Shown here: positions 5,046 to 22,457 of the stretch, one piece after another
How the letters are laid out: every line of letters starts with the position of its first letter
Position numbering within the stretch: the first letter of the stretch is position 1
Virus record (IMG/VR): IMGVR_UViG_3300046010_012789
Location: 1 to 23,949 of that record
Origin: a virus
Strand: one strand, 5' to 3'
DNA length: 23,949 nucleotides
The notes under the pieces: model-generated
The model's database searches: none
What the model was told of the DNA's origin: nothing
Seen by the model: only the letters and a program-made list of their open reading frames with translations
Position numbers and translations under genes: made by a program

Positions 5046-7532
5046 TTATTGAACTTGACGAGCTCCTAATTTTAGAGCTGAAGCTACTTTTTGTCCATCT
5101 ATATTAATGTCTTGACCTTGGGAGATTACATTAATGAGTTGTTGTAAAAGTTGATTTGTTTTTTTAGTTTCCTCACTATTACTTGAAGTAATTGGATTAC
5201 CTGCTCCTTCTTTCCCTCCACCTAAAATTTGATTTGTTGTTTGAACACCAGTATTTAACGTGTCTAGTTTAGCATAAAATTCATCTAGTGGAACAACCGC
5301 TTCAGAACCAGCTTCACCGATTAAAGCGTTAGTTGGACCGTTAACTATTCCACCATCAGCAAACGCTACCATCCCAGCTAAATCTATTGGTGCTATTGGT
5401 TTAATATCTACACCAGGGATATAGTTTAACATATCTATGGAACTATTTACCATTGATATAGCTCCATTTAACATAGCTTGGAATGGAGTTAATATCATTC
5501 TAAGTATTCCATTTCCTATTTTTTTAAACCCTTCTGCAAAATCACCACTAAATAAATCCTTAATACCATTAAATATAGATTTTAAACCGCTTAATGGTTC
5601 CATTATATATGTTTTAATTACTTCACCTAAAGCTTTAAAATTATTTATTATTGGGCGTAATACAACATTTACAAGAGGTGTAAGGGCTTCTACAATTTGC
5701 ATTATAGGATCTAAAATAGCTAAAATTGGTTCGGCTATTCGAACAAATACTTCTTTTAATTTTTCTACTGATTGGTTAAAACGATCTTGTAGGGATTGTT
5801 GTTTAACCATATTATCTAATTGACCTTCTTTAAGCATTTGGGCTGCTTTTTCGGCACCGTATTTTTGTTTGGCTGCTTCGTATGCTTCTCTTTCTTGTGC
5901 GTTAAGATCTTTTCCTACGGCTTTTAATGCTTCCTGCTCAAATAACATTCCAGCTAATTCTTCACGACTCATTCCAGCAGCTTTAGCCATTGCTTCTTGC
6001 TGGATTCTATTCATTTTGCTAAAATCTGCTGCGGAACCAACTTGTTTATTGATTTCTTCTGCTACGGTTTTTAAATCGTTATTTAATGCTGCTTGTCGTG
6101 CTTTTTCTAGGTTAATGCTTTTACCTGTTAGTAGTTCAGCACTTAATTCACTTTCAATAGATTGTTCAAAGTTTAATAAACCGTCTGCTATATTCTCAAC
6201 TTTAGACATTTCTAAACCTACAGCTTTAGCAGCAACCATCATTTGAGCCATTCCTTTAGCTCCACCGGCAGTTGATAATTGAGTAGCTTTTGAAAGTTTA
6301 CTCATATCAGCCATTAATGTTTTAGTATTAAGAGCAACACCTTTTTGATATGTTGCAATTTTAGCGGCAGCTTGGAATTCTTCAACATTGCCTTCTAATG
6401 TACCCCCCATAACCATGGTCATCTTTTGCATTCCCATGATTTCTTCGTTGGTCATTCCGGCTTGTTCTCTTAATTTAGTGAATACTTTTAAGTTTTCTTC
6501 ACTAATCATTCCTGAAGTTCCAAGTTCTTGATTAACTGCTTGTAAGGTTTCTCCTAATTTTTTAGAGGTAAGAGCAGAATCCATGGACATATCAGCCATG
6601 GTACCTAATTGTTCATTGACTTTTAATGCCTGATCATAGGTGATGTTCATGTTTTTAGCCATGTCACCTGTTCCAGAATCAAGCATTTGCATTGCTTCAA
6701 CAATTTGTTCAATAACTATTTTAATTATTGCTACAGGACCTAAAGCAGCTGTAAGATTTTTTCCAAAAACTTTAGCTCCTTCACCCAATATCTTCATTTG
6801 ACCAGACATGCCTGAAATAGATGGATCGGCTGCTACCTCTCTCATTCTTTCTTGGGCTTCATCTAAGCCTAGCTTATTAGCCATTCCGGGGAATGCTTTA
6901 CCTAACCCCCCAAATACTCCTTCTAATACACCTGTTTTTTTATCTATCTGGTCTTCAACATCTGCAAAATTTCTTGCATTTACTATTAAATCTTCAAATG
7001 CTGTATTTTGTCCTTCTATTGTGCCCTCTATTTCATTTTGGGCTGCTTTAATTTTTTTTAATTGAGTGAGCTGGCTTGAGTTTTGATTTCCTTTTTTTCT
7101 TTCAGCTATAATAGCTTGTTTATCTTGCTCTAAAGTATCATAGGCAATTTGAAGTCTTTTTTTCTCAGCTAAAGCTTGTTTTTCAATAGACTCTAATTGT
7201 TTTTTAGATAATCTATTTATCCCACTATGGTGATTTGATAAATCTGCTGCTAAATTAGTTAATTTATTGAATGATGAGGTGGTATCTCTTATTCCTTTAT
7301 TTCCTTTTTGGATTTGTCTAACAACATCTTGAAAAGAAGATGCCATTGATTCTACACTATCTGTAGAGTCTTTTAATTCATCTTCCCATTTTCCTAAAAG
7401 TTCGGAAACTAAAGCAGCATCTTTTTTAAGAGCATCTAAATTAAATGAACTTAAATTTTTATTTAAAAGAGTTGCTAATTTTTGTAACCTTTCAAATTCT
7501 TTTGCTACGTCTTTAGGGTCTTTTTCAGCCAT
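5046..7532 (-). CDS. Tail tape measure protein
   Basis: 828 residues. The N-terminal third (about 1-215) is strongly helical and charged, consistent with coiled coil (for example KKQLESIEKQALAEKKRLQI). A hydrophobic helix near 262-290 (LGPVAIIKIVIEQIVEAM) and a second hydrophobic block around 600-700 (EPILAILDPIMQIVEALTPL) are typical of tape measures. The decisive signature is near residues 724-753: FADGGIVNGPTNALIGEAG followed by SEAVVPLDEF, a motif found near the C-terminus of many phage tape measures. The protein sets tail length as a scaffold inside the tube. At roughly 1.5 angstrom per residue it would fit a tail of about 120 nm, a rough estimate from the family rule. It directly follows the chaperone pair, the classical order. 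ATG at 7532 is 12 nt from a promoter-like element. Confidence 0.93.
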   Translation of the reverse strand: MAEKDPKDVAKEFERLQKLATLLNKNLSSFNLDALKKDAALVSELLGKWEDELKDSTDSVESMASSFQDVVRQIQKGNKGIRDTTSSFNKLTNLAADLSNHHSGINRLSKKQLESIEKQALAEKKRLQIAYDTLEQDKQAIIAERKKGNQNSSQLTQLKKIKAAQNEIEGTIEGQNTAFEDLIVNARNFADVEDQIDKKTGVLEGVFGGLGKAFPGMANKLGLDEAQERMREVAADPSISGMSGQMKILGEGAKVFGKNLTAALGPVAIIKIVIEQIVEAMQMLDSGTGDMAKNMNITYDQALKVNEQLGTMADMSMDSALTSKKLGETLQAVNQELGTSGMISEENLKVFTKLREQAGMTNEEIMGMQKMTMVMGGTLEGNVEEFQAAAKIATYQKGVALNTKTLMADMSKLSKATQLSTAGGAKGMAQMMVAAKAVGLEMSKVENIADGLLNFEQSIESELSAELLTGKSINLEKARQAALNNDLKTVAEEINKQVGSAADFSKMNRIQQEAMAKAAGMSREELAGMLFEQEALKAVGKDLNAQEREAYEAAKQKYGAEKAAQMLKEGQLDNMVKQQSLQDRFNQSVEKLKEVFVRIAEPILAILDPIMQIVEALTPLVNVVLRPIINNFKALGEVIKTYIMEPLSGLKSIFNGIKDLFSGDFAEGFKKIGNGILRMILTPFQAMLNGAISMVNSSIDMLNYIPGVDIKPIAPIDLAGMVAFADGGIVNGPTNALIGEAGSEAVVPLDEFYAKLDTLNTGVQTTNQILGGGKEGAGNPITSSNSEETKKTNQLLQQLINVISQGQDINIDGQKVASALKLGARQVQ

Positions 7533-7568: not shown

Positions 7569-7904
7569 TTATTTATATTTTACTGGTCTTTTAGAAGTTT
7601 GAGAGGATTTTAAAAATTCAGGGGCTTTAATTTTTCCGGTTTCATCAATTACTGTTTTAGTTCCTGATGGAGTTGAATTGTTGGTAGAAGTTTTGTTTAT
7701 TTCATCAAAATGTTTTTGGATTTGATTAAAGGTAAATTTACGGAGCCAGATTGGCATATTGTAAACAGTATACCAATCATATCCTCCATTACCGTGAAAA
7801 ACAATCTGATGAATGTTAGTAAATAGTGATTCTCTAACCTTTGGTGCTATATCATAGCTCAGGCCAAAAAAAGCTAATCCCAAGTGGAATATTGACTCTG
7901 TCAC
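7569..7904 (-). CDS. Second tail assembly chaperone ORF, probably made by frameshift
   Basis: This frame has no ATG near its beginning; the first usable codon is GTG at 7904. The ORF overlaps the end of the gp26-like gene by 53 nt and lies directly upstream of the tape measure. The 111-residue product contains the segment GGYDWYTVYNMPIWLRKF with a following helix, which resembles small chaperone-like ORFs found before phage tape measures. The lack of an ATG, the overlap and the context fit the G/GT design of lambda-type phages or the -2 shift of Mu-type phages, in which a fraction of ribosomes extend the upstream protein. Here the second frame is +1 (or -2) relative to the first. A shift at the 3' T7 tract would give a fusion of about 338-339 residues. 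Independent GTG initiation is possible: a GGGAG lies only 2 nt before it, closer than usual. Confidence 0.7.
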   Translation of the reverse strand: MTESIFHLGLAFFGLSYDIAPKVRESLFTNIHQIVFHGNGGYDWYTVYNMPIWLRKFTFNQIQKHFDEINKTSTNNSTPSGTKTVIDETGKIKAPEFLKSSQTSKRPVKYK

Positions 7905-8586
7905 TACTCCCGTCGGGAAAAAAAGTTAGATCAACATCTGGTTGAATCTCTTTAACATATTCTCTTAATGCCCTGGAGTCTCGGGCTAAGAGGGCTTTAT
8001 CTACAAATTCTCGAACATCTTTTTTCTCTCTCATCCCATTTACAGATGTTATAATATATTTTAAACGTGTTGAGAGTTCTGGGGATGAATCTTTATTTAT
8101 TTTTTTAAGTCCTTCTAATTCACGTTGGATTTCTTGTTCATCTTTATGAGTTAATAATTTAAATGTAAGTTCATTTCCTGAATGAGGGCATTTAAATGGA
8201 AATTCATTTCCTGATACTGTACGGATTTCGTCTCTAAGTGGTTTATTTTCAATTTGGGATAAATCAATTGTATATGATTCTCCACCATATTCAAATGAAT
8301 ATTCTGAGCCATATCCTAAGATACGAGCTGCAACCATTATCGCATTTTTATCACCAGCTAGCAAATCATTATATTCAATTGGGGATACAATTAAAGATTT
8401 CATTACTCTATCTAAAACTGTACCGTTTCTAATATATGATTGGTTTGTAAGGATATCTTCTTCCTTAGCTGTCATATATTTCATTTGAATTTTACCTTTA
8501 GCTAATTCAGATCCTTCGGGGTAAAGTAAACCTTTAGATGGTAATTCGATTTCCTCGGTGGGTAAATTAAATTTTGATTCTTCCAT
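7852..8586 (-). CDS. gp26-like baseplate/tail assembly chaperone (T4_baseplate-type)
   Basis: 244 residues. The N-terminus EEIELPSKGLLYPEG followed by GKIQMKYMTAKEEDILTNQ (residues 11-49), then the helix TVLDRVMKSLIV, is the pattern I associate with T4 gp26-like proteins, annotated as baseplate hub assembly or tail assembly chaperone. A CPHSGNE segment in the middle could be part of a small metal site, but only one Cys is seen there. The C-terminus GISFFWPEL overlaps a second ORF in another frame. The gene lies two genes after the tube and just before the tape measure, the normal place of the tape measure chaperone. The gap before it holds only a degraded copy of the local promoter-like element. 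Confidence 0.78.
   Translation of the reverse strand: MEESKFNLPTEEIELPSKGLLYPEGSELAKGKIQMKYMTAKEEDILTNQSYIRNGTVLDRVMKSLIVSPIEYNDLLAGDKNAIMVAARILGYGSEYSFEYGGESYTIDLSQIENKPLRDEIRTVSGNEFPFKCPHSGNELTFKLLTHKDEQEIQRELEGLKKINKDSSPELSTRLKYIITSVNGMREKKDVREFVDKALLARDSRALREYVKEIQPDVDLTFFPDGSSDRVNIPLGISFFWPEL
7866..7924 (-). other. Candidate programmed frameshift region with two T7 tracts
   Basis: Within the stretch open in both frames the sense strand has two runs of seven T (plus-strand A7 at 7918-7924 and 7866-7872). At the 3' run, frame 0 reads AGC TTT TTT TGG and the second frame reads GCT TTT TTT GGC, so a tRNA-Phe slip of -2, or a +1 skip, joins them with cognate pairing. The 5' run follows immediately after the last stop (TAA) of the second frame, so both runs are usable. 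The window is short and bounded by stops, as expected for programmed shifts. Confidence 0.55.
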
Positions 8587-9097: not shown

Positions 9098-9586
9098 TTA
9101 GAAGTTCAAAATACAGTAGTCTGGTTGGACTTCAATTGAGATATTTACTGCGTTACCGTCATCATCCCAGTTATAATCTCCAAAGTTAACACTTGTAATA
9201 ACAGCTCCTTTAATTACCCATTCGTTAACAATATCACCTACTGGTCCTAAACCGTTAAATGTAATATCTTTTTTATAGAAATCAGAGTAACCATCTCTAC
9301 CTGTTACTGACTCGTGTCCTAAACGAACCCATTCCATTACAGTTTGTGAACCTGCAGGGGTAATTGCTTCAAATAATGTAAAAGTAACTGTATTCCAAAT
9401 AGTTTTTCCTTTTACATAACGTTGAACGTTAATGTGGTTAAGAGCAACTGCCGTTTGAGATAATGAAATTGCAGACATTCCTTTTACCAAATACGATGGA
9501 ATACCATCCATATAAAGGATAAAACGGTTTGTTAGTCTAGGTTCAAACGCCGTATAGAAAATTTCGTTAGGATTTAAAATTGCCAT
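9098..9586 (-). CDS. Tail tube protein, T4 gp19-like
   Basis: 162 residues, almost the same length as T4 gp19 (163). The pattern fits the gp19 family: N-terminal PRLTNRFILYMDGIPSYLVK, a central NHINVQRYVKGKTIWNTVTF (the conserved region in which the peptide chain is turned against the tube), GSQTVMEWVRLGHESVTGRDG, and a C-terminal Asp-rich turn (NFGDYNWDDDGN) followed by the strand NISIEVQPDYCIL. It forms the hexameric inner tube through which DNA passes. It follows sheath gene 1, as gp19 follows gp18 in T4, and is followed by a strong terminator. The ATG at 9586 has a 25-nt A-rich leader after a promoter-like element. Confidence 0.93.
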   Translation of the reverse strand: MAILNPNEIFYTAFEPRLTNRFILYMDGIPSYLVKGMSAISLSQTAVALNHINVQRYVKGKTIWNTVTFTLFEAITPAGSQTVMEWVRLGHESVTGRDGYSDFYKKDITFNGLGPVGDIVNEWVIKGAVITSVNFGDYNWDDDGNAVNISIEVQPDYCILNF

Positions 9587-9636: not shown

Positions 9637-11376
9637 TTAAACTGGGAATTGAGCTCCTGTTGGTAATAAGATAAAATCTAAAGATATAAATTCTGCTGTT
9701 TTAGTTGGTTGTACATAAATTTGTCCAATCAATTGATTTCTATCTATTACATCAGGTCCGTTATTTGAATCATCCATTACTACTTTAAAGGCATATAAAC
9801 CTTGTTTTTGTTGGATAATTTGTAAGTATGGAGTTACTTTACCAACAAATGCATTTCTAGTAGCGTTAGTGTTTTGTTCAAATACTACTGTATCTGCGAT
9901 TTGACGAATATAGTTTTTCAATTCGATCATCAAACGTCTAACATTTACTCTATCTAAAGCAGATGCTTCTTTTTGTAATGTTTTTTGTCCAAATACAACA
10001 ACACCTTCTTTTGGTAATGATGCTAATGGGTTAACATTTGATGCATATAAATCATCTTTATTTGCTTGAGTCAATTTATATTGAGCGCGAATTACTGTAG
10101 ATAAACCACCTCTGTTAATACCCGCTGGAGCAAACCAAGGAGCAGCTACTTTATCGTTAAATGCATAAACACCTGGGATAACTGTTGAAGCTGGGGCCCA
10201 AATTTGTCTTCCTGTAGCTGGGTCAGCTACTCTAACCCATGGATAGTAAGAAGCAGCATATGAAGTATCTCTTGTATTTGCTTCTGAGATTGCATCTGGA
10301 ACACCCATTCCATAAGTTACTAAATCCATTACATATAAATTATCTCCTCTATCTTGAGTATTTTGGATAATTGTTGAAATTCTTGATGTATGGTCTGGTA
10401 AATCGTTTGTTAAACCAGGAGTAAACAATACATTAAATTGATAAGCATCTCTATTTTTCAATATAGTAATTGCATCATCGTAATCTGATGGGTTAACACC
10501 TTGTGTATTTGTAGATGTAATATTTTCGTATAATGCTGCTCCAGCAATTACATCTCCTGTAGCTCCACCAAATGTACCGTTTTGAGCAACTGGAATTGAA
10601 CTTGTATATTGTGATTTTGGTTGTCCGTTTGCGTCTAAATAATTTGGTGTTGGATTATTAACAGCAGCAACACGTACATAACGTGATTTATTTGGATATT
10701 CACCAGTTACATCAATTTGTTCATTTGCTGGATCATATGCTAATTTTTGATCTCCAATTACTTTGGAAATGTAACGAGATGAATATGGATCCAAACTTAC
10801 GTTATTCCATGTTTCAAGGATTAATTTTTGATTTGTTCTATCATCTCCTCTTCTTACCAATAATGTAAATGTACCTGAAGATGTGTTTGGGGTGATAATT
10901 TCAAATCTAACATTATCTTTAGTTCCTAAAAGTAAAGCTCCTCCACTTCCAGTAACATTATTGTTCATGATTACACCTTCGGAAATTGTTTCAAGTTCAA
11001 ATATATTAGGACCTGCATATCCAGGGAGAACATATCCATTAACAACATATGCTTCATCATTTGCTACAACTGAGGATGTTGCTGATGTGTAAGAACCACT
11101 TACTACACGTGTTACAAGTAATGAAGCACCACCATAGTTAAAATAATTGTAAGCTGCTAATGAAGTAAAATAAGAACAAGCTAAACCACCACTTGTAAAT
11201 GTATCACCAAAATAGTTTTGGTAATCAGAATATGAAGTGATTAATGTAGGAACATTTACAGGACCTTTAACTGTTGGGCCTATAATAGCTGCACCAGCTT
11301 GTACAGGTTGTCCTGTTAAAAACGTGTTGTCGATTTCACTTATTGTTACTCCAGGAGAAATTGAAAAATTTGCCAT
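9637..11376 (-). CDS. Tail sheath protein 1, T4 gp18-like
   Basis: 579 residues. The N-terminus MANFSISPGVTISEID and GAAIIGPTVKGPVNVPTLI is the classical start of contractile sheath proteins, and the C-terminal 119 residues (from VFGQKTLQKEASALD through VNVRRLMIELKNYI to the final LPTGAQFPV) match the sheath C-terminal domain. Sheath subunits form hexameric rings around the tube and contract on infection. The central part (WVRVADPATGRQIWAPAS, PGVYAFNDKVAAPWFAPAG) is also typical. The protein is shorter than T4 gp18 (659) because the variable protruding region near residues 95-125 is short. It lies directly upstream of the tube gene. A paralogue is encoded about 0.8 kb upstream. Start at 11376 is 12 nt from a promoter-like element. 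Confidence 0.94.
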   Translation of the reverse strand: MANFSISPGVTISEIDNTFLTGQPVQAGAAIIGPTVKGPVNVPTLITSYSDYQNYFGDTFTSGGLACSYFTSLAAYNYFNYGGASLLVTRVVSGSYTSATSSVVANDEAYVVNGYVLPGYAGPNIFELETISEGVIMNNNVTGSGGALLLGTKDNVRFEIITPNTSSGTFTLLVRRGDDRTNQKLILETWNNVSLDPYSSRYISKVIGDQKLAYDPANEQIDVTGEYPNKSRYVRVAAVNNPTPNYLDANGQPKSQYTSSIPVAQNGTFGGATGDVIAGAALYENITSTNTQGVNPSDYDDAITILKNRDAYQFNVLFTPGLTNDLPDHTSRISTIIQNTQDRGDNLYVMDLVTYGMGVPDAISEANTRDTSYAASYYPWVRVADPATGRQIWAPASTVIPGVYAFNDKVAAPWFAPAGINRGGLSTVIRAQYKLTQANKDDLYASNVNPLASLPKEGVVVFGQKTLQKEASALDRVNVRRLMIELKNYIRQIADTVVFEQNTNATRNAFVGKVTPYLQIIQQKQGLYAFKVVMDDSNNGPDVIDRNQLIGQIYVQPTKTAEFISLDFILLPTGAQFPV

Positions 11377-11388
11377 TTTTATTTTTTA

Positions 11389-11399
11389 TTATAAATATT
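11389..11399 (-). promoter_or_regulatory. Late-promoter-like A/T element
   Basis: The sense strand reads AATATTTATAATAAAAAAT, 12 nt before the sheath 1 ATG. It gives the sheath its own start, separate from the endonuclease gene upstream. Confidence 0.55.
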
Positions 11400-11409
11400 A
11401 ATTTTCTTT

Positions 11410-12120
11410 TTAAAATACTAGGGGTTTGTACTTCCATTTAAATCCATATGCTGTTTTTGAATAACCTATCAAACAACAACTTATATTACTTCGTTTAAAT
11501 TTTAAATTACTATTAGATGCTTCTTCTATACTTTTAAATTCTTGAATTAAATTATCATTTATATCTAATTGAAGAATAGGTTTATATTTTTTATCTGTAA
11601 AAGATTGGGGTTGTTTTTTTCCTAATTTCCCTTGTCTGATTTTTTCACAATGTTCTTTGGATAATTTTTTTCCTGATTTAATTTGGCTTATTTTTTCTCT
11701 AAATCCTTCAGGTTTTAAGTTTCCTTTATTAGCTTTACTAAGTTTTTCTTTTCGGGTTTGATTGTTTTTTAATATTGGGTTAGGTATACCTTTTTTTGAG
11801 GTTGATATTTTATTTATTATGTAATTGTATTTTTCTTTTCCTAGTTTTTCTAAATTCCACCCAGCACTATAATCTACTAAATTGTAAAATTCATCTGAAT
11901 TTAAAGCATTAAATTTATGTATCCAATGTGTTTCTTTTAGAGTTAATTCTTCATCTGAGGAGCAATATTCAAGGGTTTCTTTTTGGAAGTTTTCTTTGCC
12001 GTATTTTTTAATATCTTCTAAAAGAAGAACCCCAGAACCTAGATATTTTGGGTTATTATTAGAATCTTTCCCAATATATTTTTTTCCGTTTATTAAATTG
12101 GTTGTCAAATAAATTACCAT
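11410..12120 (-). CDS. GIY-YIG homing endonuclease with NUMOD3-type repeats
   Basis: 236 residues. Residues 1-90 form a GIY-YIG nuclease: the first motif as VIYLTT (2-7), YIGK at 15-18, KYLGSG at 25-30, and a likely catalytic Glu at 63 in LKETHWIHKF. From about 108 to 170 come short basic repeats of NUMOD3 type (KKGIPNP, KANKGN, KSGKKLSKEH, RQGKLGKKQP), which contact DNA. Residues 181-235 form a NUMOD1-like unit (PILQLDINDNLIQEF ... YGFKWKY). This is a free-standing intergenic homing gene, not part of an intron as far as I can see: the neighbouring sheath ORFs are complete. It would cut alleles lacking the insertion and spread by repair. A promoter-like element lies only 4 nt before its ATG. 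Confidence 0.92.
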   Translation of the reverse strand: MVIYLTTNLINGKKYIGKDSNNNPKYLGSGVLLLEDIKKYGKENFQKETLEYCSSDEELTLKETHWIHKFNALNSDEFYNLVDYSAGWNLEKLGKEKYNYIINKISTSKKGIPNPILKNNQTRKEKLSKANKGNLKPEGFREKISQIKSGKKLSKEHCEKIRQGKLGKKQPQSFTDKKYKPILQLDINDNLIQEFKSIEEASNSNLKFKRSNISCCLIGYSKTAYGFKWKYKPLVF

Positions 12121-12124
12121 TTTA

Positions 12125-12135
12125 TTATAAATATT
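12125..12135 (-). promoter_or_regulatory. Late-promoter-like A/T element, very close to ATG
   Basis: The sense strand reads AATATTTATAATAAAATG, where the last three bases are the start codon of the endonuclease gene; only 4 nt separate element and ATG. If it acts as a -10 box, the transcript would begin at or near the ATG. Confidence 0.5.
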
Positions 12136-12163
12136 GCAAAATAGTAAAATTTTAATATTTTAC

Positions 12164-14254
12164 TTAAGAAAATTGGGCACCTGTAGGTAAGATATTAAAG
12201 TCTAATATAATAAATTCTACTGTTTTGGTAGGTTGTAAATATATTTGACCTATTAATTGGTTGTTATCTATTGTAGTAGGTGTATTATTTGATTCATCCA
12301 TTACCACTTTAAATGCTATTAAACCTTGTCTTTGTTGTACAGATGCTAAATATGGATTTACTTGAGCTAAGAAATTGTTTCTAGTTGTTACTGTGTTTTG
12401 TTCAAACACTAAAGTATCTGCTACTTGTGAAATATAATTTTTTAATTCAATAAGTAATCTTCTTACGTTTACACGATCAAGTGCACTTCTTTTTTTCTGT
12501 AATGTTTTTTGTCCAAATACTGTTACACCTGTGTTAGGGAATGTAGCGATTGAGTTAACATTACTTTCGTATAAAGTATCTCTGTTTCCTTGAGTCAATG
12601 AACGTTCTGCTCTAATAACGGTAGTCATTCTTCCGCGGTTAACTCCAGCAGGAGCAAACCAAGGTTCTGCTATATTATCGTTAAATGCATATACACCAGG
12701 AATCATTGTTGAAGCAGGTACCCAAACTTGTCTTCCTGAATCTGGATCAATTGTTTGAACCCAAGGCCAATATGCAGCGGCATATGAAGTATCATATGTT
12801 AAAGCATTTGTTGTTACAGGTAATATATTTTCGTTATATCTTGCTAAATCTAGCAATGTCATTGAATCTCCTCTACTTTGTACAACATTTAATAATTGTG
12901 TTATAACAGGAATATGAGATGCACAATTTGTTCCATCTGCAATTAAACCAGGTGCTGTAATCAAATTATATTTGTAAGCATCTTTATTTGCAAGTAATGA
13001 AATTGATTCTGTATAATTGTTTGCTGTTAAACCTTGAATATTTGTATCGGAAATATTTTCATAATACGCGCCTGCTACTCCTGTTGGAATATTTTTTCCG
13101 CTCGCTCCTCCAAATACTCCAGCAGATGATGTTGGTAATGATCCTGTATATTCTGATTTTGGATTTCCAGTATTGTCAAAATAATTTGGAGTTGTTAAAT
13201 TTACTTGTTTAACACGTACATATCTAGATTGGTTTCTATATTCTCCATTTAATTGGATATAATATTCTCCATTATCATTGGCAACAGCTTCATATTGATT
13301 TCCTATTACTTTTTCAATATAATTTGGAGCAAATGGGTCAAGTGAAAGATTTGACCATGTTTCTAAAATTGAAGGTGAATTTGTTGAATCGTTACCTTGA
13401 CGAATAAGTAAAGTAAATGTACCATTGTTTACATTTGGAGAAACAACTTGCCATCTAAAATTATCTGCTGTTCCACGCTCTAAGGTTCCATTTGAATATA
13501 GAGAACCTGAACTGTTCATCATTTCACCTTCAGATAAGGTTTCTAATACGAATACTTCAGAGTTAGTTCCTCCAGTAAAATATGTTGTAGTACTTCCAGA
13601 AACAACATATTGTGAATTTCCAATTAAACCATTTGAACCAATATATGTGAATATTAAATTTGGTGATGAAATACTAGACGAAATATTTAATGTACTAGAA
13701 CTTGAAATATTAAATATATTAGATGCAGTAGCTAAATAATTTGCAATAGTATTAGATGCAAATGAAGATGTGTTAATATATATTGTAGTTGATGTATTTG
13801 TAACATTTGATCCTGTAAAATAATATGTAATTCCACTTACCTCAAATGAACTTGATCCAACAGACATACTTTCTGAAATGTATGTTAAATTAAGTGTAGC
13901 TGAAGCTGATGTAGCTGATACTGATGAAGGTATAGTTGATGAAGTTGCTGGGGTCCAATCTGTAATTGTGCTTCCACTTACTACTCTTGTTACAAGTAAT
14001 GTATTACCTCCATTATTAAAATAATTGTAAGCTGAAATTGATGTTAAATATGAATAAGTTTGGCTACCGCTTAAAAATGTAGAACCAAATTTATTTAAAT
14101 AATCACTATATGTTGTACATAATACAGGGATTCCTACTTTACCTTTAACTGTGGGGCCAATAATAGCGGCACCTGCCTGTATAGGTCCTTCTGTAATAAA
14201 TGATTGATCGTTTTCTATAGCTAGCACGCCAGGTGAGACAATTGTTTCAGCCAT
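12164..14254 (-). CDS. Tail sheath protein 2, T4 gp18-like, with Ser/Thr-rich insertion
   Basis: 696 residues. It shares start and end with sheath 1: GAAIIGPTVKGK in the N-terminus, and over the last 118 residues 89 are identical in an ungapped comparison by eye (about 75%). Almost the whole length difference (117 residues) is one insertion at roughly residues 107-222, very rich in Ser, Thr, Asn and Ile (for example NISSSSTLNISSSISS). In gp18-type sheaths this region is a protruding outer domain, so the insertion should be displayed on the tail surface. All canonical sheath regions (PWVQTIDPDSGRQVWVPAS, GVYAFNDNIAEPWFAPAG) are intact, so it looks functional. Only 11 nt separate it from the upstream endonuclease gene and no promoter-like element is there, so its transcription probably begins upstream of that endonuclease. 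Confidence 0.93.
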   Translation of the reverse strand: MAETIVSPGVLAIENDQSFITEGPIQAGAAIIGPTVKGKVGIPVLCTTYSDYLNKFGSTFLSGSQTYSYLTSISAYNYFNNGGNTLLVTRVVSGSTITDWTPATSSTIPSSVSATSASATLNLTYISESMSVGSSSFEVSGITYYFTGSNVTNTSTTIYINTSSFASNTIANYLATASNIFNISSSSTLNISSSISSPNLIFTYIGSNGLIGNSQYVVSGSTTTYFTGGTNSEVFVLETLSEGEMMNSSGSLYSNGTLERGTADNFRWQVVSPNVNNGTFTLLIRQGNDSTNSPSILETWSNLSLDPFAPNYIEKVIGNQYEAVANDNGEYYIQLNGEYRNQSRYVRVKQVNLTTPNYFDNTGNPKSEYTGSLPTSSAGVFGGASGKNIPTGVAGAYYENISDTNIQGLTANNYTESISLLANKDAYKYNLITAPGLIADGTNCASHIPVITQLLNVVQSRGDSMTLLDLARYNENILPVTTNALTYDTSYAAAYWPWVQTIDPDSGRQVWVPASTMIPGVYAFNDNIAEPWFAPAGVNRGRMTTVIRAERSLTQGNRDTLYESNVNSIATFPNTGVTVFGQKTLQKKRSALDRVNVRRLLIELKNYISQVADTLVFEQNTVTTRNNFLAQVNPYLASVQQRQGLIAFKVVMDESNNTPTTIDNNQLIGQIYLQPTKTVEFIILDFNILPTGAQFS

Positions 14255-14265
14255 TATTTATTTTT

Positions 14266-14919
14266 TTAGTTTATTTTATAATTCCATAGATATCCATATG
14301 CTGTTTTTTGCTTTCCTCGGCAACATGCGGCTATGTTATCTCCTATTTTATTGTTTAAAAATTTCTCAGCTTCATTAGCACTTCTCCAAATTTTAATTAA
14401 TTTATTATCTAATGAATATTGACATACTGTGTTTCCTTTTTTAGAGGTTAAATGAGAAGAAAAATTAATTTCTGGGGTGTATTTCCAGATAGAGTTTCCA
14501 GCAATTTTAGTTTTTCCTTTTAAACAACCATCTATGTCTACTCCTGTTAATGTTTTAGCTTCTTTTATACTATCCCATATTTTAATTAAATTTCCATCTA
14601 AATTATATTGGTATATTTTTTTTTGTAATTTGGTAACTACTTTTTGAATAGATTCTTGGGATTTTTTTGATGGACCTCCACCCCCATTATTTTTATTTTT
14701 TATCTTAAAACCCCATTGTCTAAATTGCTCTATCCAATATGATTCAAGAGGTTTCCAATCTTTTGAATTAATTGAAAAAATCTCATCTATTACATAATAT
14801 TTAATATCTTGGCCATATTTTAATATATGATCATATTTTCTTGATTGTGGATTAACTGTTTTACCAATATAAACCTCACCAGAAGATAATTCTATTAAAT
14901 AAATATAAGTAATTTTCAT
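14266..14919 (-). CDS. GIY-YIG homing endonuclease with two NUMOD1-type repeats
   Basis: 217 residues. The nuclease domain (1-85) has the GIY motif as YIYLIE (5-10), YIGKT at 17-21, a likely catalytic Arg at 27 in SRKYDHILKYG, a likely catalytic Glu at 59 in PLESYWIEQF, and an Asn-Gly-rich end (NKNNGGGGPSKKS). The C-terminal half holds two NUMOD1-like DNA-binding repeats, 102-147 (IYQYNLDGNLIKIWDSIKEA) and 166-215 (VCQYSLDNKLIKIWRSANEA). It differs in architecture from the endonuclease at 11410-12120 (NUMOD3 there), so the two did not arise by simple local duplication. It lies immediately upstream of sheath 2. A promoter-like element is only 3 nt from its ATG. Confidence 0.92.
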   Translation of the reverse strand: MKITYIYLIELSSGEVYIGKTVNPQSRKYDHILKYGQDIKYYVIDEIFSINSKDWKPLESYWIEQFRQWGFKIKNKNNGGGGPSKKSQESIQKVVTKLQKKIYQYNLDGNLIKIWDSIKEAKTLTGVDIDGCLKGKTKIAGNSIWKYTPEINFSSHLTSKKGNTVCQYSLDNKLIKIWRSANEAEKFLNNKIGDNIAACCRGKQKTAYGYLWNYKIN

Positions 14920-18239: not shown

Positions 18240-21200
18240 TTATCCTACTTGTGTTACTGTTATAATTACTGATGGGGTTGATGGGAGATTACCTGTTGCT
18301 GTAAATGCTGCGAGTTGCATGGTAGTATCGGAAGATTGCCAAACTATTTCATAGTAGTCATTAATATTAAAGGTATCTACATAATTCCAAGCAGCTATTA
18401 TTTTACCATTTCCTCCTGCAGCTTTAGCTATATCTATATTACTATTTGATCTAGGTACATTAGTTCCATTTTTCTTAAACCAAATATATGCTGTTTCTGT
18501 ACCATTACTGGTTTTTTCAAGTTGCGCTGAGAATTGTATATTGTATACTCCAGCATGGGCAAATGTAATTCTACTACCACTAACAAAACTAACTCCATTT
18601 GAATGTTCAGTTGTATCTAATTGCATTGAACGCGATACGTTAGCTACAGGATTTGTTTGGGATCCTGTACTACAAAAAACTCCATACCATCCAAATCCAT
18701 CTAAAAATGATGATGTGTTAGCTGATGTTAATATTGGGAGCCCATTTATATAACCACTTCCTGTTATTTGGAGTGAGCCTGTTATTATTACATTTTGAGT
18801 AAGTGGGTTGACATATGATGCTGTTTGTGCATTTTTAACATAAGATGCTGTTGTAGCATATGAAGCGCTAATTGCATTTAAAACATAACTTGCTGTTTGA
18901 GCTGTTGTAACATACGATGCTGTTAAAGCATTTTCAGCCCAACTTGCGGTACCAAAAAATCTACTACTTGATGGGATTGTTATACCAGTTGTATCTATTG
19001 TAGTAACTAAACTTCTACTAATAGCGCCATTAGCGTAAGTATAAAAAGCTGCTCTACTACCATAACTAGATGTTGAGTAATTTTCTGTTGCTTGAAACTC
19101 TAAAGATGTTGGAACAGCATCTATTACGGGGAAGTAACTACTTGTCGCATAACCTAACCCAGCGAATCTAACTAATACATCTCCTGATAATGTTGGGGTT
19201 GGATTATCTGATGCTCCTCTAGCATGTCTACCTACAAAGATAGTACCTATATTTGATCCAAAACCATCAACGGTTACTCGTGCAGCTTGATTATCATTAC
19301 TTGTAACATGAATCATACCCCCTGGGTTAATTACTGGTTGGTAGGTTCCATTATTACTTCCTATTATGCTTAACCCCCCAATATCGTTAGCAGGTATATT
19401 AGGTATTCTTATTACTGTTCTTGCTGTGGAAGATACTTCAAATGGAACAAACGATCCGGATTTTAATTGAAAACCTGCTCCTGCAAAAGTAACGTTTCCA
19501 TTTGCGTTTGATATTACTGCTGGGATACCGCCGGGAATATCTGATTGTATGCTGATTGATCCGGATTGAACGTATATTGATCTCCATGGGTTGGTTAAAG
19601 ATCCTAGATCAAACGAACTAGATATCTGTGGGATAACATCTCCAGCTATTTGTATACTACCTGTCAATGTAGTAGTACCTATTAAGGTATTATTTCCTGT
19701 TTGAGTAGTTGAACCAGTTATATTAAGGGAACCGGTCATTATAGTAGTCCCCTGTATTGTGCTAGACCCACTTATACTAATACTACCACTTAGTGTTGTA
19801 TTACCAATTAATGTATTATTTCCTGTTTGAGTTGTAGATCCTGTTATATTTAGACTTCCTGTTAAAGTTGTAGATCCAATTAACGTATTAGAACCTGTTG
19901 TAAATAAACTACCTGTTATTGTTTGGTTACCTTTAAATATATTTGAACCTGTTGTGGCAAGTGAAGCACTTTTAGCTACAAATACAGGATCTGTTTCAGC
20001 AAAATATGATGCTGTATCTGCATATGTTGAAAATAAAGCATATGAAGAAGATAAAGATGTTCCTGTTGTCCCCCCAGTTGATCCAATAGCAAATCCACTT
20101 TCTTGTGTTGGAAAAGTTATTATAGCACTTGCCGTATCTACAAGTTGTATATTTTCTGGGATGATTTGATTGTAATTTGAATCAAATACAGTTATGATAG
20201 GTGTTCTAGTACTTAAATTGTGATTAAAAGTATATGATGTTGTATTTGTAAATGATCCTGTTACAAGTGAACCTGAAATAATTGTTACACCACCACCACC
20301 TGATGCTATCACTGTTACTGCTCCTTGACCACCTGCTGGGATTAATGTAATACCCGATCCTGCTATTAATTGAGTCACACCACCATTTCCTGCAGTTGCT
20401 GCATAATCAGCTGTTAATGCATTATCTGCATGTGATGCTGATGTTACGTTGTTAACTGTAACTGTACTTAAAGTACCACCTGCACTATTTAATAATCTTA
20501 CTTGATTATTTGATGGTTGTGATAAACTAGCTCCTAATGTTGTTGAATAAGATGATGTTTGAGAAGTTGTAGCTGAAGTAGCATTACCTTGTAAAGATCC
20601 TGTAAATGAAAAAGCTTTAACACTTCCACTTACATCTAATGAACCTGACATCAAATGTTGGTTATTAGGATTTAATTCAAGTTTATTATGTATATCAACA
20701 TCACTACCACCTGCAAATATTTGTACTGGAAAATTTGATATATTTCCTATATGTAAATGGTTACCGGTAGAGTATAAATAAGCATCATTAACTCCTCCAA
20801 CAAATCCGGCATCATAGTTTTCACTATTGATACCCATATCAATATAATTGGTAGTTTCATTACCATTATTTGCTGTGGCAACTATATCGGATGATGCATC
20901 TGTACCTTGATTTGTATTTTGAATATTTAATTGTAAATAATTATCTAAATTACCTTTACCTGATATTACATTAATTGATGTTGGATGTGGTTGCCAAACA
21001 TATAATGCTTCTGGGTTAGCAGTTGTATTGTTATCTTGGTTTATTATTATACTAGTTGATCCTGATTGGAATATTGAACTAGTTGCAAGGGTTGTATCTG
21101 TAATAAAATATGGTACGTGTGTTGCTTTACCACCTAGTATATTTGAGGCAGTTTGAGCAAACTCAACGTAAGAGGCTGTTTGAGCATTTTCAACATATGA

Positions 21201-22457
21201 AGCAGTTAACGCGTATGAAGAAGTTCCTTCTAATGAACCTGTAAATACACCATTTTCCCAATCTATTGAAACTGTAGTTCCGTCTGATTTAAGAAGTTGT
21301 CGATTATTCCAATCTATAGATAATGCTGCTGATGGGGAATATAAATATCTATTTTCTGCATCAATTGAGTTAGCACCAGTTGTATCCCATATATTAACAC
21401 CTGTAGTAGTAGCTTCTAATAAAGAAGTATTTGCTGTTGGATTTTCTACTATGAATGAATCTGTTGTTAAATAAACTTGTGATCCAGTTACATTTAACGA
21501 ACCCGTAATACTTAATGAACCTGTTATTTCAGCACTTCCGGTATATGGAAAGGGTGAAATATATCCTTCTAGATAAGATGCTGTTAATGCATATGAGGCG
21601 CTTGTAACAGTTCCATCTATATTTGAAGCACTTACATATGAAGCAGTTTGAGCAAATTCAACGTAAGAGGCCGTTTGAGCATTTTGAACATATGAAGCTG
21701 TTGAAGCGTATGAAGCAGTTCCTGCAAATTGACTGGTAGTTGAACCTGTATAATTGTTAAATGAAGATGTAAGGACTACTCCACTATTTATTATGGTTGC
21801 TACATCTTGATAATTAGCATATGTAGTTAAACCATTAGCAGTAGTTGTTAATATATAAGAACCAGTATCATATCCTATACTACTACTAAACCAATCAATT
21901 TGGTCTGGGTAAAATGTTCCTGATTGGTGTAGGGTACCTGAGATGGTTTGATCGCCATTAAATATATTTGAACCAGTAGTTGCAAATGAACCTGATTTTG
22001 CTGTAAATATTGGGTCTGTTTCTTGGTAATATGAGGCAGTTTGAGCATTCTCTACATATGAGGCAGTTTGAGCATTCTCTACATAAGATGCAGTTTGAGC
22101 AAGTTCAACGTAGCTAGCAGTTTGAGATAAAACTACATATGAAGCTGTTGAAGCGTATGAAGCGCTTTCAGCAATACTAGCTGTTTCAGCATATGATGAT
22201 GACGTTTCATAATTTATCTCATATGAAGCACTTACAGCATATGAAGCACTTACAGCATATGAAGAAGTTCCTGCAAATTGGCTAGTGTTTGAACCTGTAT
22301 AATAGTTAAATGAGGAGGTTGTTACTAGAGAACTTGTATCAAATGATTGGGTTGGTAAATTTGTCAGACCACTCCCATCTCCATAAAATGAGCCACTAAA
22401 GGAGCCTGATATACTATAGGATCCTGATCGTAACTGTTCTGGTTTGATTAGAGCCAT
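18240..22457 (-). CDS. Giant repeat-rich tail fibre with C1q-like C-terminal domain
   Basis: 1405 residues, the longest gene here. The N-terminus MALIKPEQLRSGSYSISGSF and FYGDGSGLTNLP is a typical fibre entry. Blocks of 9-residue TASYVENAQ-type repeats occur at about 100-145, 245-275, 415-440 and 1160-1215, separated by ITGSL/TTGSN beta modules. A module of ETDPxFxAKS followed by ATTGSNIF occurs twice (about residues 146-170 and 824-850). The last 150 residues (1256-1405) form a C1q/TNF-like jelly-roll, with RITFAHAGVYNIQFSAQLEK, AYIWFKKNGTNVP and AWNYVDTFNINDYYEIVW; such domains are receptor-binding tips. No intramolecular chaperone motif was recognised. It starts 1 nt after the 48-residue gene and is followed by a coupled fibre gene. 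Role: host recognition, by inference from domain order. Confidence 0.88.
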   Translation of the reverse strand: MALIKPEQLRSGSYSISGSFSGSFYGDGSGLTNLPTQSFDTSSLVTTSSFNYYTGSNTSQFAGTSSYAVSASYAVSASYEINYETSSSYAETASIAESASYASTASYVVLSQTASYVELAQTASYVENAQTASYVENAQTASYYQETDPIFTAKSGSFATTGSNIFNGDQTISGTLHQSGTFYPDQIDWFSSSIGYDTGSYILTTTANGLTTYANYQDVATIINSGVVLTSSFNNYTGSTTSQFAGTASYASTASYVQNAQTASYVEFAQTASYVSASNIDGTVTSASYALTASYLEGYISPFPYTGSAEITGSLSITGSLNVTGSQVYLTTDSFIVENPTANTSLLEATTTGVNIWDTTGANSIDAENRYLYSPSAALSIDWNNRQLLKSDGTTVSIDWENGVFTGSLEGTSSYALTASYVENAQTASYVEFAQTASNILGGKATHVPYFITDTTLATSSIFQSGSTSIIINQDNNTTANPEALYVWQPHPTSINVISGKGNLDNYLQLNIQNTNQGTDASSDIVATANNGNETTNYIDMGINSENYDAGFVGGVNDAYLYSTGNHLHIGNISNFPVQIFAGGSDVDIHNKLELNPNNQHLMSGSLDVSGSVKAFSFTGSLQGNATSATTSQTSSYSTTLGASLSQPSNNQVRLLNSAGGTLSTVTVNNVTSASHADNALTADYAATAGNGGVTQLIAGSGITLIPAGGQGAVTVIASGGGGVTIISGSLVTGSFTNTTSYTFNHNLSTRTPIITVFDSNYNQIIPENIQLVDTASAIITFPTQESGFAIGSTGGTTGTSLSSSYALFSTYADTASYFAETDPVFVAKSASLATTGSNIFKGNQTITGSLFTTGSNTLIGSTTLTGSLNITGSTTQTGNNTLIGNTTLSGSISISGSSTIQGTTIMTGSLNITGSTTQTGNNTLIGTTTLTGSIQIAGDVIPQISSSFDLGSLTNPWRSIYVQSGSISIQSDIPGGIPAVISNANGNVTFAGAGFQLKSGSFVPFEVSSTARTVIRIPNIPANDIGGLSIIGSNNGTYQPVINPGGMIHVTSNDNQAARVTVDGFGSNIGTIFVGRHARGASDNPTPTLSGDVLVRFAGLGYATSSYFPVIDAVPTSLEFQATENYSTSSYGSRAAFYTYANGAISRSLVTTIDTTGITIPSSSRFFGTASWAENALTASYVTTAQTASYVLNAISASYATTASYVKNAQTASYVNPLTQNVIITGSLQITGSGYINGLPILTSANTSSFLDGFGWYGVFCSTGSQTNPVANVSRSMQLDTTEHSNGVSFVSGSRITFAHAGVYNIQFSAQLEKTSNGTETAYIWFKKNGTNVPRSNSNIDIAKAAGGNGKIIAAWNYVDTFNINDYYEIVWQSSDTTMQLAAFTATGNLPSTPSVIITVTQVG
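19640..19930 (-). repeat. TTGSNTLIG/TQTGNNTLIG repeat block in the giant fibre
   Basis: Coding repeats: SLNITGSTTQTGNNTLIG occurs twice, separated by a related ISGSSTIQG module, and SLFTTGSNTLIG lies just before. Units are similar rather than identical at DNA level. The stretch is best read as stacked beta-repeat modules of a trimeric fibre shaft. Confidence 0.7.
22029..22136 (-). repeat. Four 27-bp tandem coding repeats, two identical
   Basis: Units at 22029-22055, 22056-22082, 22083-22109 and 22110-22136. The first two are identical over 27 bases; the others diverge. The period of 27 bp is 9 codons and encodes TASYVENAQ-type units, so the reading frame is kept. Exact identity of two units points to a recent duplication. 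Confidence 0.85.

Follow-up and report, generated by a model that had tools for sequence, protein, structure and literature searches.

A very probable +1 frameshift at a conserved site in T4-type tail assembly chaperone genes

Tail assembly chaperones that are made in two forms by frameshifting are known, and cases with −1, −2 and +1 shifts have been described (PMC5009743). Atkins et al. 2016 (PMC5009743) describe this frameshift as a conserved feature of long-tailed phages 'except T4'. In T4, genes 26 and 51 are separate, and, as the work is cited in PMC10885494 and PMC12846349, the short and long forms were reported to be separate genes without frameshifting (Vladimirov, Gautam and Davidson 2022, Virology 566:9). 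Here we analyzed a stretch of viral DNA of 23,949 nucleotides (IMG/VR record IMGVR_UViG_3300046010_012789; hereafter the window), in which a gp26-like reading frame, ORF1, overlaps a second one, ORF2. The initial annotation had proposed that a programmed shift joins the chaperone to ORF2, and both the conservation among relatives and the signature of the frame change in their sequences support this proposal strongly, the evidence being comparative throughout. Chaperone frameshifting as such is already known, and what appears to be new is the +1 U7 site of the T4 type; our literature search, whose reach did not extend to the 2022 T4 paper itself, found no +1 shift at UUU UUU UGG CCU in T4-type chaperones.

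Gene layout and the two reading frames

The following genes and sites of the window are considered here.

9098-9586, minus strand: tail tube protein, gp19-like (PHROG_4542, E 5e-17), upstream of ORF1
8586-7852, minus strand: ORF1 (TAC-N), putative T4 gp26/gp51-type tail assembly chaperone, 244 aa, the normal translation product
7924-7918, minus strand: tract 1, T7, within ACT TTT TTT CCC; possibly a second +1 slip site confined to a clade, 51 nt 5' of tract 2
7872-7866, minus strand: tract 2, T7, predicted main +1 slip site UUU UUU UGG CCU (codons 7872-7870 and 7869-7867; skipped U 7866)
7572-7865, minus strand: ORF2 after the shift (TAC-C), 98 aa, predicted C-terminal extension of the frameshift product
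7852-7854, minus strand: zero-frame TGA stop, a few codons past the slip codon, read from the sequence
5046-7532, minus strand: tail tape measure protein (PHROG_167, E 2e-9), the next gene downstream of ORF2

The gene order is tube, a 123-aa ORF, chaperone N (ORF1), chaperone C (ORF2) and tape measure, and ORF1 and ORF2 form a pair lying between tail tube and tape measure, as in the G/GT kind. We take this order of tube, chaperone N, chaperone C and tape measure to be that of lambda V-G-T-H. Read directly from the minus strand, the codons at the 3' end of ORF1 are AGC TTT TTT TGG CCT GAG CTA TGA, and from tract 1 on ORF1 reads CTA ACT TTT TTT CCC GAC GGG AGT AGT GAC AGA GTC AAT ATT CCA CTT GGG ATT, followed by AGC and tract 2. 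ORF2 is open from stop to stop (7925-7569, minus strand) in the frame that is +1 to ORF1, and ahead of codon 36, counted from the shift, it offers only GTG 7904 and one TTG as starts. The initial annotation had placed the overlap at 7852-7926, directly before the tape measure, with two T7 runs (7924-7918 and 7872-7866) at which tRNA-Phe re-pairing is cognate for either a +1 or a −2 shift; all of this proved correct, the PHROG_167 gene starting at 7532, just after ORF2. It had also described ORF2 as having no ATG but only a GTG, and the first part of this description holds up to codon 36, while the GTG is not the sole candidate, a TTG being present as well. The coding strand of the 24-kb window carries just two runs of seven or more T, both in the overlap, and the opposite strand carries 18. 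T7 runs are not enriched when both strands are counted together (23 seen vs 37 expected), and the significance of the tracts therefore rests on their position and conservation and not on their number.

ORF1 matched PHROG_150 ('baseplate hub') with an E value of 1.8e-7, as did 57 of 57 relatives, and T4 gp26 and gp51 match the same family (7e-71 and 3e-84, respectively); Pfam T4_baseplate was matched by 40 of the 57 ORF1 relatives. The AlphaFold2 model of ORF1 (pLDDT 91) is similar in structure to predicted T4-like baseplate hub assembly proteins, among them the one from Bacillus phage SP-15, and a structure search against the PDB returned nothing significant, the HK97 chaperone 2ob9 appearing only at E 1.2. 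Profile comparison (hhalign) of ORF1 with single T4 gp26 or gp51 was not significant (probability <2%), and on these sequence comparisons the kinship of ORF1 to T4 gp26/gp51 runs through PHROG_150 only. In ORF2, a core reading GLTxxYR..QIH..VFHGxGGYxWxxVYNMPxWLRxF is conserved in 54 relatives, and its AF2 model consists of three helices, for which a fold search gave no match. PHROG_634, which covers residues 147-246 of T4 gp51, was weakly matched by 6 of the 54 ORF2 relatives (best E 0.0024) and not by the ORF2 of the window itself, weak ORF2 matches were also found to PHROG_32580 (tail assembly chaperone), and hhalign of ORF2 directly against T4 gp51 gave no match. These weak profile matches, together with synteny, suggest that ORF1 and ORF2 function as a tail chaperone. 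Most of the relatives found in the genome collection are contigs of Flavobacteriales MAGs, from which a host within Bacteroidota seems probable.

Two further observations concern the rest of the window. At 9637-14919, two tail sheath paralogues lie beside ORFs resembling GIY-YIG/NUMOD homing endonucleases (11410-12120 and 14266-14919), and at 18240-22457 there is a 1405-aa tail protein with many TASYVxxAQTASY and SGSLxITGS repeats and no Pfam match.

Conservation of the slip site and change of frame

We collected 80 close relatives, named phages and ~100 distant relatives from homology searches; 156 sequences were left once duplicates had been removed, and grouping these at 70% protein identity gave 45 clusters. 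TTT TTT TGG CCT or a +1-compatible variant stands where ORF1 ends in 156 distinct relatives from 45 clusters, with protein identities as low as ~24%, the exceptions to the +1 site being two relatives with an ATG (L180 and L184) and one −1 relative. The zero-frame codons are TTT TTT TGG CCT in 33 of the 45 clusters, and variant sites with ORF2 in the +1 frame read TTT CTT TGG CCT, CTT TTT TGG CCT, TTC TTT TGG CCT, TTT CTT TAC CCT and TTT TTT TAC CCT. Further +1 variants are TTT TTT TGG AAT (Rhodothermus RM378), TTT CTA TTC CCT (LR756508) and TTC TTT CGT CCC (GXN1). Under the re-pairing rule for +1, by which a P-site UUU moves onto UUU or UUC, or CUU onto UUU as in RF2, each of the listed variants, read from the sites as given, offers a +1 step (UUU-Y or CUU-U) at codon 1 or 2. 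In the genome collection, 11 contigs extend as far as the site, one of them a WOR-3 chromosome with 34% identity, and all 11 read TTT TTT TGG CCT or TTT TTT TTC CCT. Judged from these sequences, tract 2 is near-universal and close to invariant in the 45 clusters.

Codon 2 is TTT in 39 of 39 Phe-bearing clusters against a background of 68% (log10 P −6.9 in a calculation that is naive to lineage). A rule that codon 2 is never TTC holds in the homology sample (39/39 clusters), but it had to be softened when a directed scan yielded at least 8 TAC loci with TTT TTC TGG. Of the 8 loci listed, 7 belong to one lineage, in which a +1 slip is impossible on codon 2 and would need codon 1; ORF2 there reads FSGLN..., which fits a slip on the first UUU. 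When IMG/VR was scanned for TTTTTTTGGCCTGA, 113 of 119 among the matches listed were found where a TAC-N gene ends and in the frame of that gene, 112 of them with ORF2 in +1; the codon-1 variant TTCTTTTGGCCTGA was at a TAC-N locus in 40 of 120 among the matches listed and the codon-2 variant TTTTTCTGGCCTGA in 8 of 120, all three fractions holding among the matches listed and not being absolute frequencies.

The position of the frame change can be read from the pattern of variability. Among 36 cluster representatives, variability peaks at the third positions of frame 0 upstream of tract 2 and at those of the +1 frame downstream of it, and the 12 bases TTTTTTTGGCCT at the switch point are almost invariant, wobble positions included. 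Moreover, in the lineages L089, L103, L106, L160, L162 and L169, among others, the first possible start of ORF2 is codon 29-36, which falls past most of the conserved domain of ORF2, and in many lineages the +1 frame is closed just upstream of the tract. With no early start and a closed +1 frame, separate initiation of ORF2 is impossible in those lineages. Comparison among relatives shows a change of frame, its position, its +1 direction and the lack of usable starts in many of them.

The initial annotation had considered that relatives with an ATG start for ORF2 would count against a programmed shift. Two such relatives do exist (L180 and L184), with an ATG for ORF2 at the ORF1 stop, yet both have lost the T7 tract and carry ORF2 in another frame. 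The ends of their ORF1 read TTC TTG TAT CCT and TTC CTT TGG CCA, respectively, and the peptide F-[FL]-[WY]-P-D is kept. Because the loss of the tract goes together with the move of ORF2 to another frame, these two relatives are, on their sequences, natural controls and not a refutation.

Proposed mechanism, alternatives and the upstream tract

We consider it very probable that a programmed shift into ORF2 occurs at tract 2 by a +1 slip and gives a TAC-NC fusion. In the proposed mechanism, ribosomes on the T4-type chaperone mRNA would reach UUU UUU UGG CCU (7872-7861, minus strand), and the majority would read through and stop a few codons later, yielding the short chaperone TAC-N. A fraction would slip one base forward, the P-site tRNA-Phe moving from UUU to the overlapping UUU; the slip would be possible because tRNA-Phe can re-pair with this UUU while UGG (Trp) waits in the A site. 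The slipped ribosomes would then read ...SFF-GLSYD... through ORF2 and produce TAC-NC of ~338 aa. If lambda G/GT is a guide, binding of the tape measure may fall to the N part and recruitment of tail tube subunits to the C domain. We infer the efficiency of the shift, the role of UGG and the chaperone function of both forms. No conserved RNA structure downstream and no clear stimulator was found, the 60-nt windows downstream of the site having a mean z of −0.65 to −0.9, near that of the flanks.

The initial annotation had left the direction as +1 or −2, and of these +1 is by far the better supported. A −2 frameshift as in phage Mu would move the P-site tRNA-Phe back two bases on U7 and add one extra Phe. 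Such shifts are known for Mu (PMC5009743), and −2 re-pairing would be cognate for the T7 form as well as for the TTT TTC TGG lineage. A mechanism of this kind would have to work at all homologous sites, and we found that it fails at TTC TTT TGG (the L169 group; 9 distinct contigs), at TTC TTT CGT (GXN1) and at TTT CTA TTC (LR756508), where re-pairing would be non-cognate and which all keep ORF2 in the same frame. These three variant sites permit +1 and not −2, which makes +1 much likelier and rules out −2 as a general mechanism; we regard a −2 shift as very unlikely. That ORF2 is a separate gene, started from GTG 7904 or a TTG, is more improbable still. In-frame GTG and TTG codons do exist in the window, two relatives begin ORF2 with an ATG, and the annotations of KVP40 and cyanophages show a gene of its own, with an ATG. 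However, the GTG is not conserved, many lineages lack any start before codon 29-36 and have the +1 frame closed right upstream of the tract, and the relatives that gained an ATG have lost the slip site; an independent GTG or TTG start is ruled out by the lineages without any early start. Transcriptional slippage, by which U's would be added to or removed from the T7 run, has a homopolymer to act upon, but seven bases is short for such slippage, and TTT CTT TGG, TTC TTT TGG and TTT CTA TTC interrupt the run while ORF2 stays in +1. We give this explanation hardly any weight, and slippage of this type, or an assembly error, is ruled out by the variants with interrupted T runs and by the recurrence of the site in isolates and independent contigs. 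The preferred explanation is a +1 slip of the ribosome at tract 2, and a +1 shift in all relatives that keep the homologous site is the simplest reading.

Tract 1 is a different matter. The two tracts had been proposed as alternatives, with conservation of both in related phages as a check; tract 2 is conserved in this way, but tract 1 is not universal. A slippery tract 1 (Phe-Phe with a +1-compatible second codon) was present in 62 of 153 relatives and 11 of 45 clusters, always 51 nt upstream of tract 2, and equal roles for the tracts are ruled out by its being missing in most lineages. The idea of a second site is partly supported by the +1 frame between the tracts, which is open in 62 of 62 relatives with tract 1, whereas synonymous reshuffling (50 full-T7 members) predicts ~45%. 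In relatives without tract 1, the frame is open over the same interval in 33 of 91, with ~37% expected, and the interval upstream of tract 1 showed no such avoidance of stops. Four tract-1 clusters were tested for dual coding: in L002 and L029, third-position variability falls and first-position variability rises between the tracts, as dual coding predicts, and the pattern was absent from L020 and L050. Tract 1 may instead be mere coding chance (L-T-F-F-P) without any role, which we rate as a serious possibility somewhat short of an even chance: Phe-Phe-Pro is coded there and the tract is missing in most clusters. The fully open frame and the dual-coded appearance of two of the four clusters argue against chance, although this is not proof, as the clusters share ancestry. 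A conserved RNA element between the tracts could also cause the constraint. On the sequences compared, we therefore consider the chances that tract 1 is a functional, clade-specific second +1 site to be about even, a rating held down because the clusters are related. A slip at tract 1 would give a fusion of the same length that differs in a stretch of ~16 residues. We tentatively propose, at slightly less than even confidence, that this clade has two in-phase +1 sites 51 nt apart, with the interval kept open by selection and TAC-NC products of identical length in which ~16 residues are dual-coded, and that the same two-form output is reached across the family by +1, by −1, by a separate ATG gene or by duplication.

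Versions within the family and comparison with known systems

The +1 signal was found in phages of Flavobacterium, Microcystis and Rhodothermus and in uncultured relatives, and related +1 sites occur in Bacillus SP-15, Listeria LIS04 and GXN1. L087 has the canonical −1 heptamer, T TTT TTC, at its end, followed by an extension in the −1 frame. By inspection, T TTT TTC also closes the gp26-like genes of S-SM2 (L192) and Bellamy (L196), both Kyanoviridae phages, and of KVP40 (L195) and Atu_ph07 (L193), and the −1 frame that carries a small gp51-like gene stays open across it. From these gene ends, the four phages likely use −1 programmed frameshifting, and where the gp51-like genes are annotated they are given as separate ATG genes. 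In L355, a GGCCTGA.../FFGLT segment is apparently duplicated in tandem at the slip site, with a +1 reading of FSGLTYEFFGLTFEYN. The annotations of Flavobacterium phage immuto (L082), RM378 (L084), SP-15 (L190) and LIS04 (L191) truncate, separate or omit the C domain, and none marks ribosomal slippage.

If the +1 slip is accepted, a family of T4-type chaperones shifts +1 at a signal whose conservation is very strong, which bears on the 'except T4' statement. UUU UUU UGG CCU would offer a simple sense-codon +1 site for mechanistic work, and the 14-base motif a marker of the chaperone gene in metagenomes; public annotations are seen to truncate or miss the chaperone C domain. That a single family contains versions with +1, with apparent −1, with an ATG start and with a duplicated gene also bears on the origin of the separate gp26 and gp51 of T4.

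Among known systems, lambda G/GT (and the P2 and HK97 types) is alike in that a chaperone encoded between tube and tape measure has a short form and a minor form extended by frameshifting; lambda uses −1 on a different heptamer, whereas the shift here would be +1 on UUU UUU UGG and would lie in a chaperone of the T4 type, for which no sequence relation to gpG is demonstrated. The −2 shift of phage Mu reaches the same (+1) frame, but the variants found here disallow −2. T4 gp26/gp51 share PHROG_150 with ORF1, and PHROG_634, the C-terminal part of gp51, is weakly matched by ORF2 relatives; T4 differs in having two separate genes, reportedly with no frameshift. The TAC of Vandenendeviridae/Andersonviridae (phage Adele, PMC12846349) likewise has a T-rich slip site at the end of TAC-N and an unannotated extension, but it shifts −1 at GTTTTT and belongs to another motif and family. 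In the haloarchaeal myovirus HSTV-2, a tail gene has been described as 'very likely +1' (PMC5009743), with another gene or slip sequence, and in Listeria PSA structural or tail genes shift +1 on codons for proline, again with a different slip sequence. With respect to the slip itself, UUU has been reported to be among the next most slippery codons for +1 (PMC10885494). In RF2 (prfB), at CUU UGA C, the P-site tRNA slips +1 on CUU/UUU as is proposed here, and the immuto site reads CUU UGG C; RF2 differs in that a UGA stop takes the place of the sense codon UGG and in that its shift serves autoregulation, which the chaperone shift does not.
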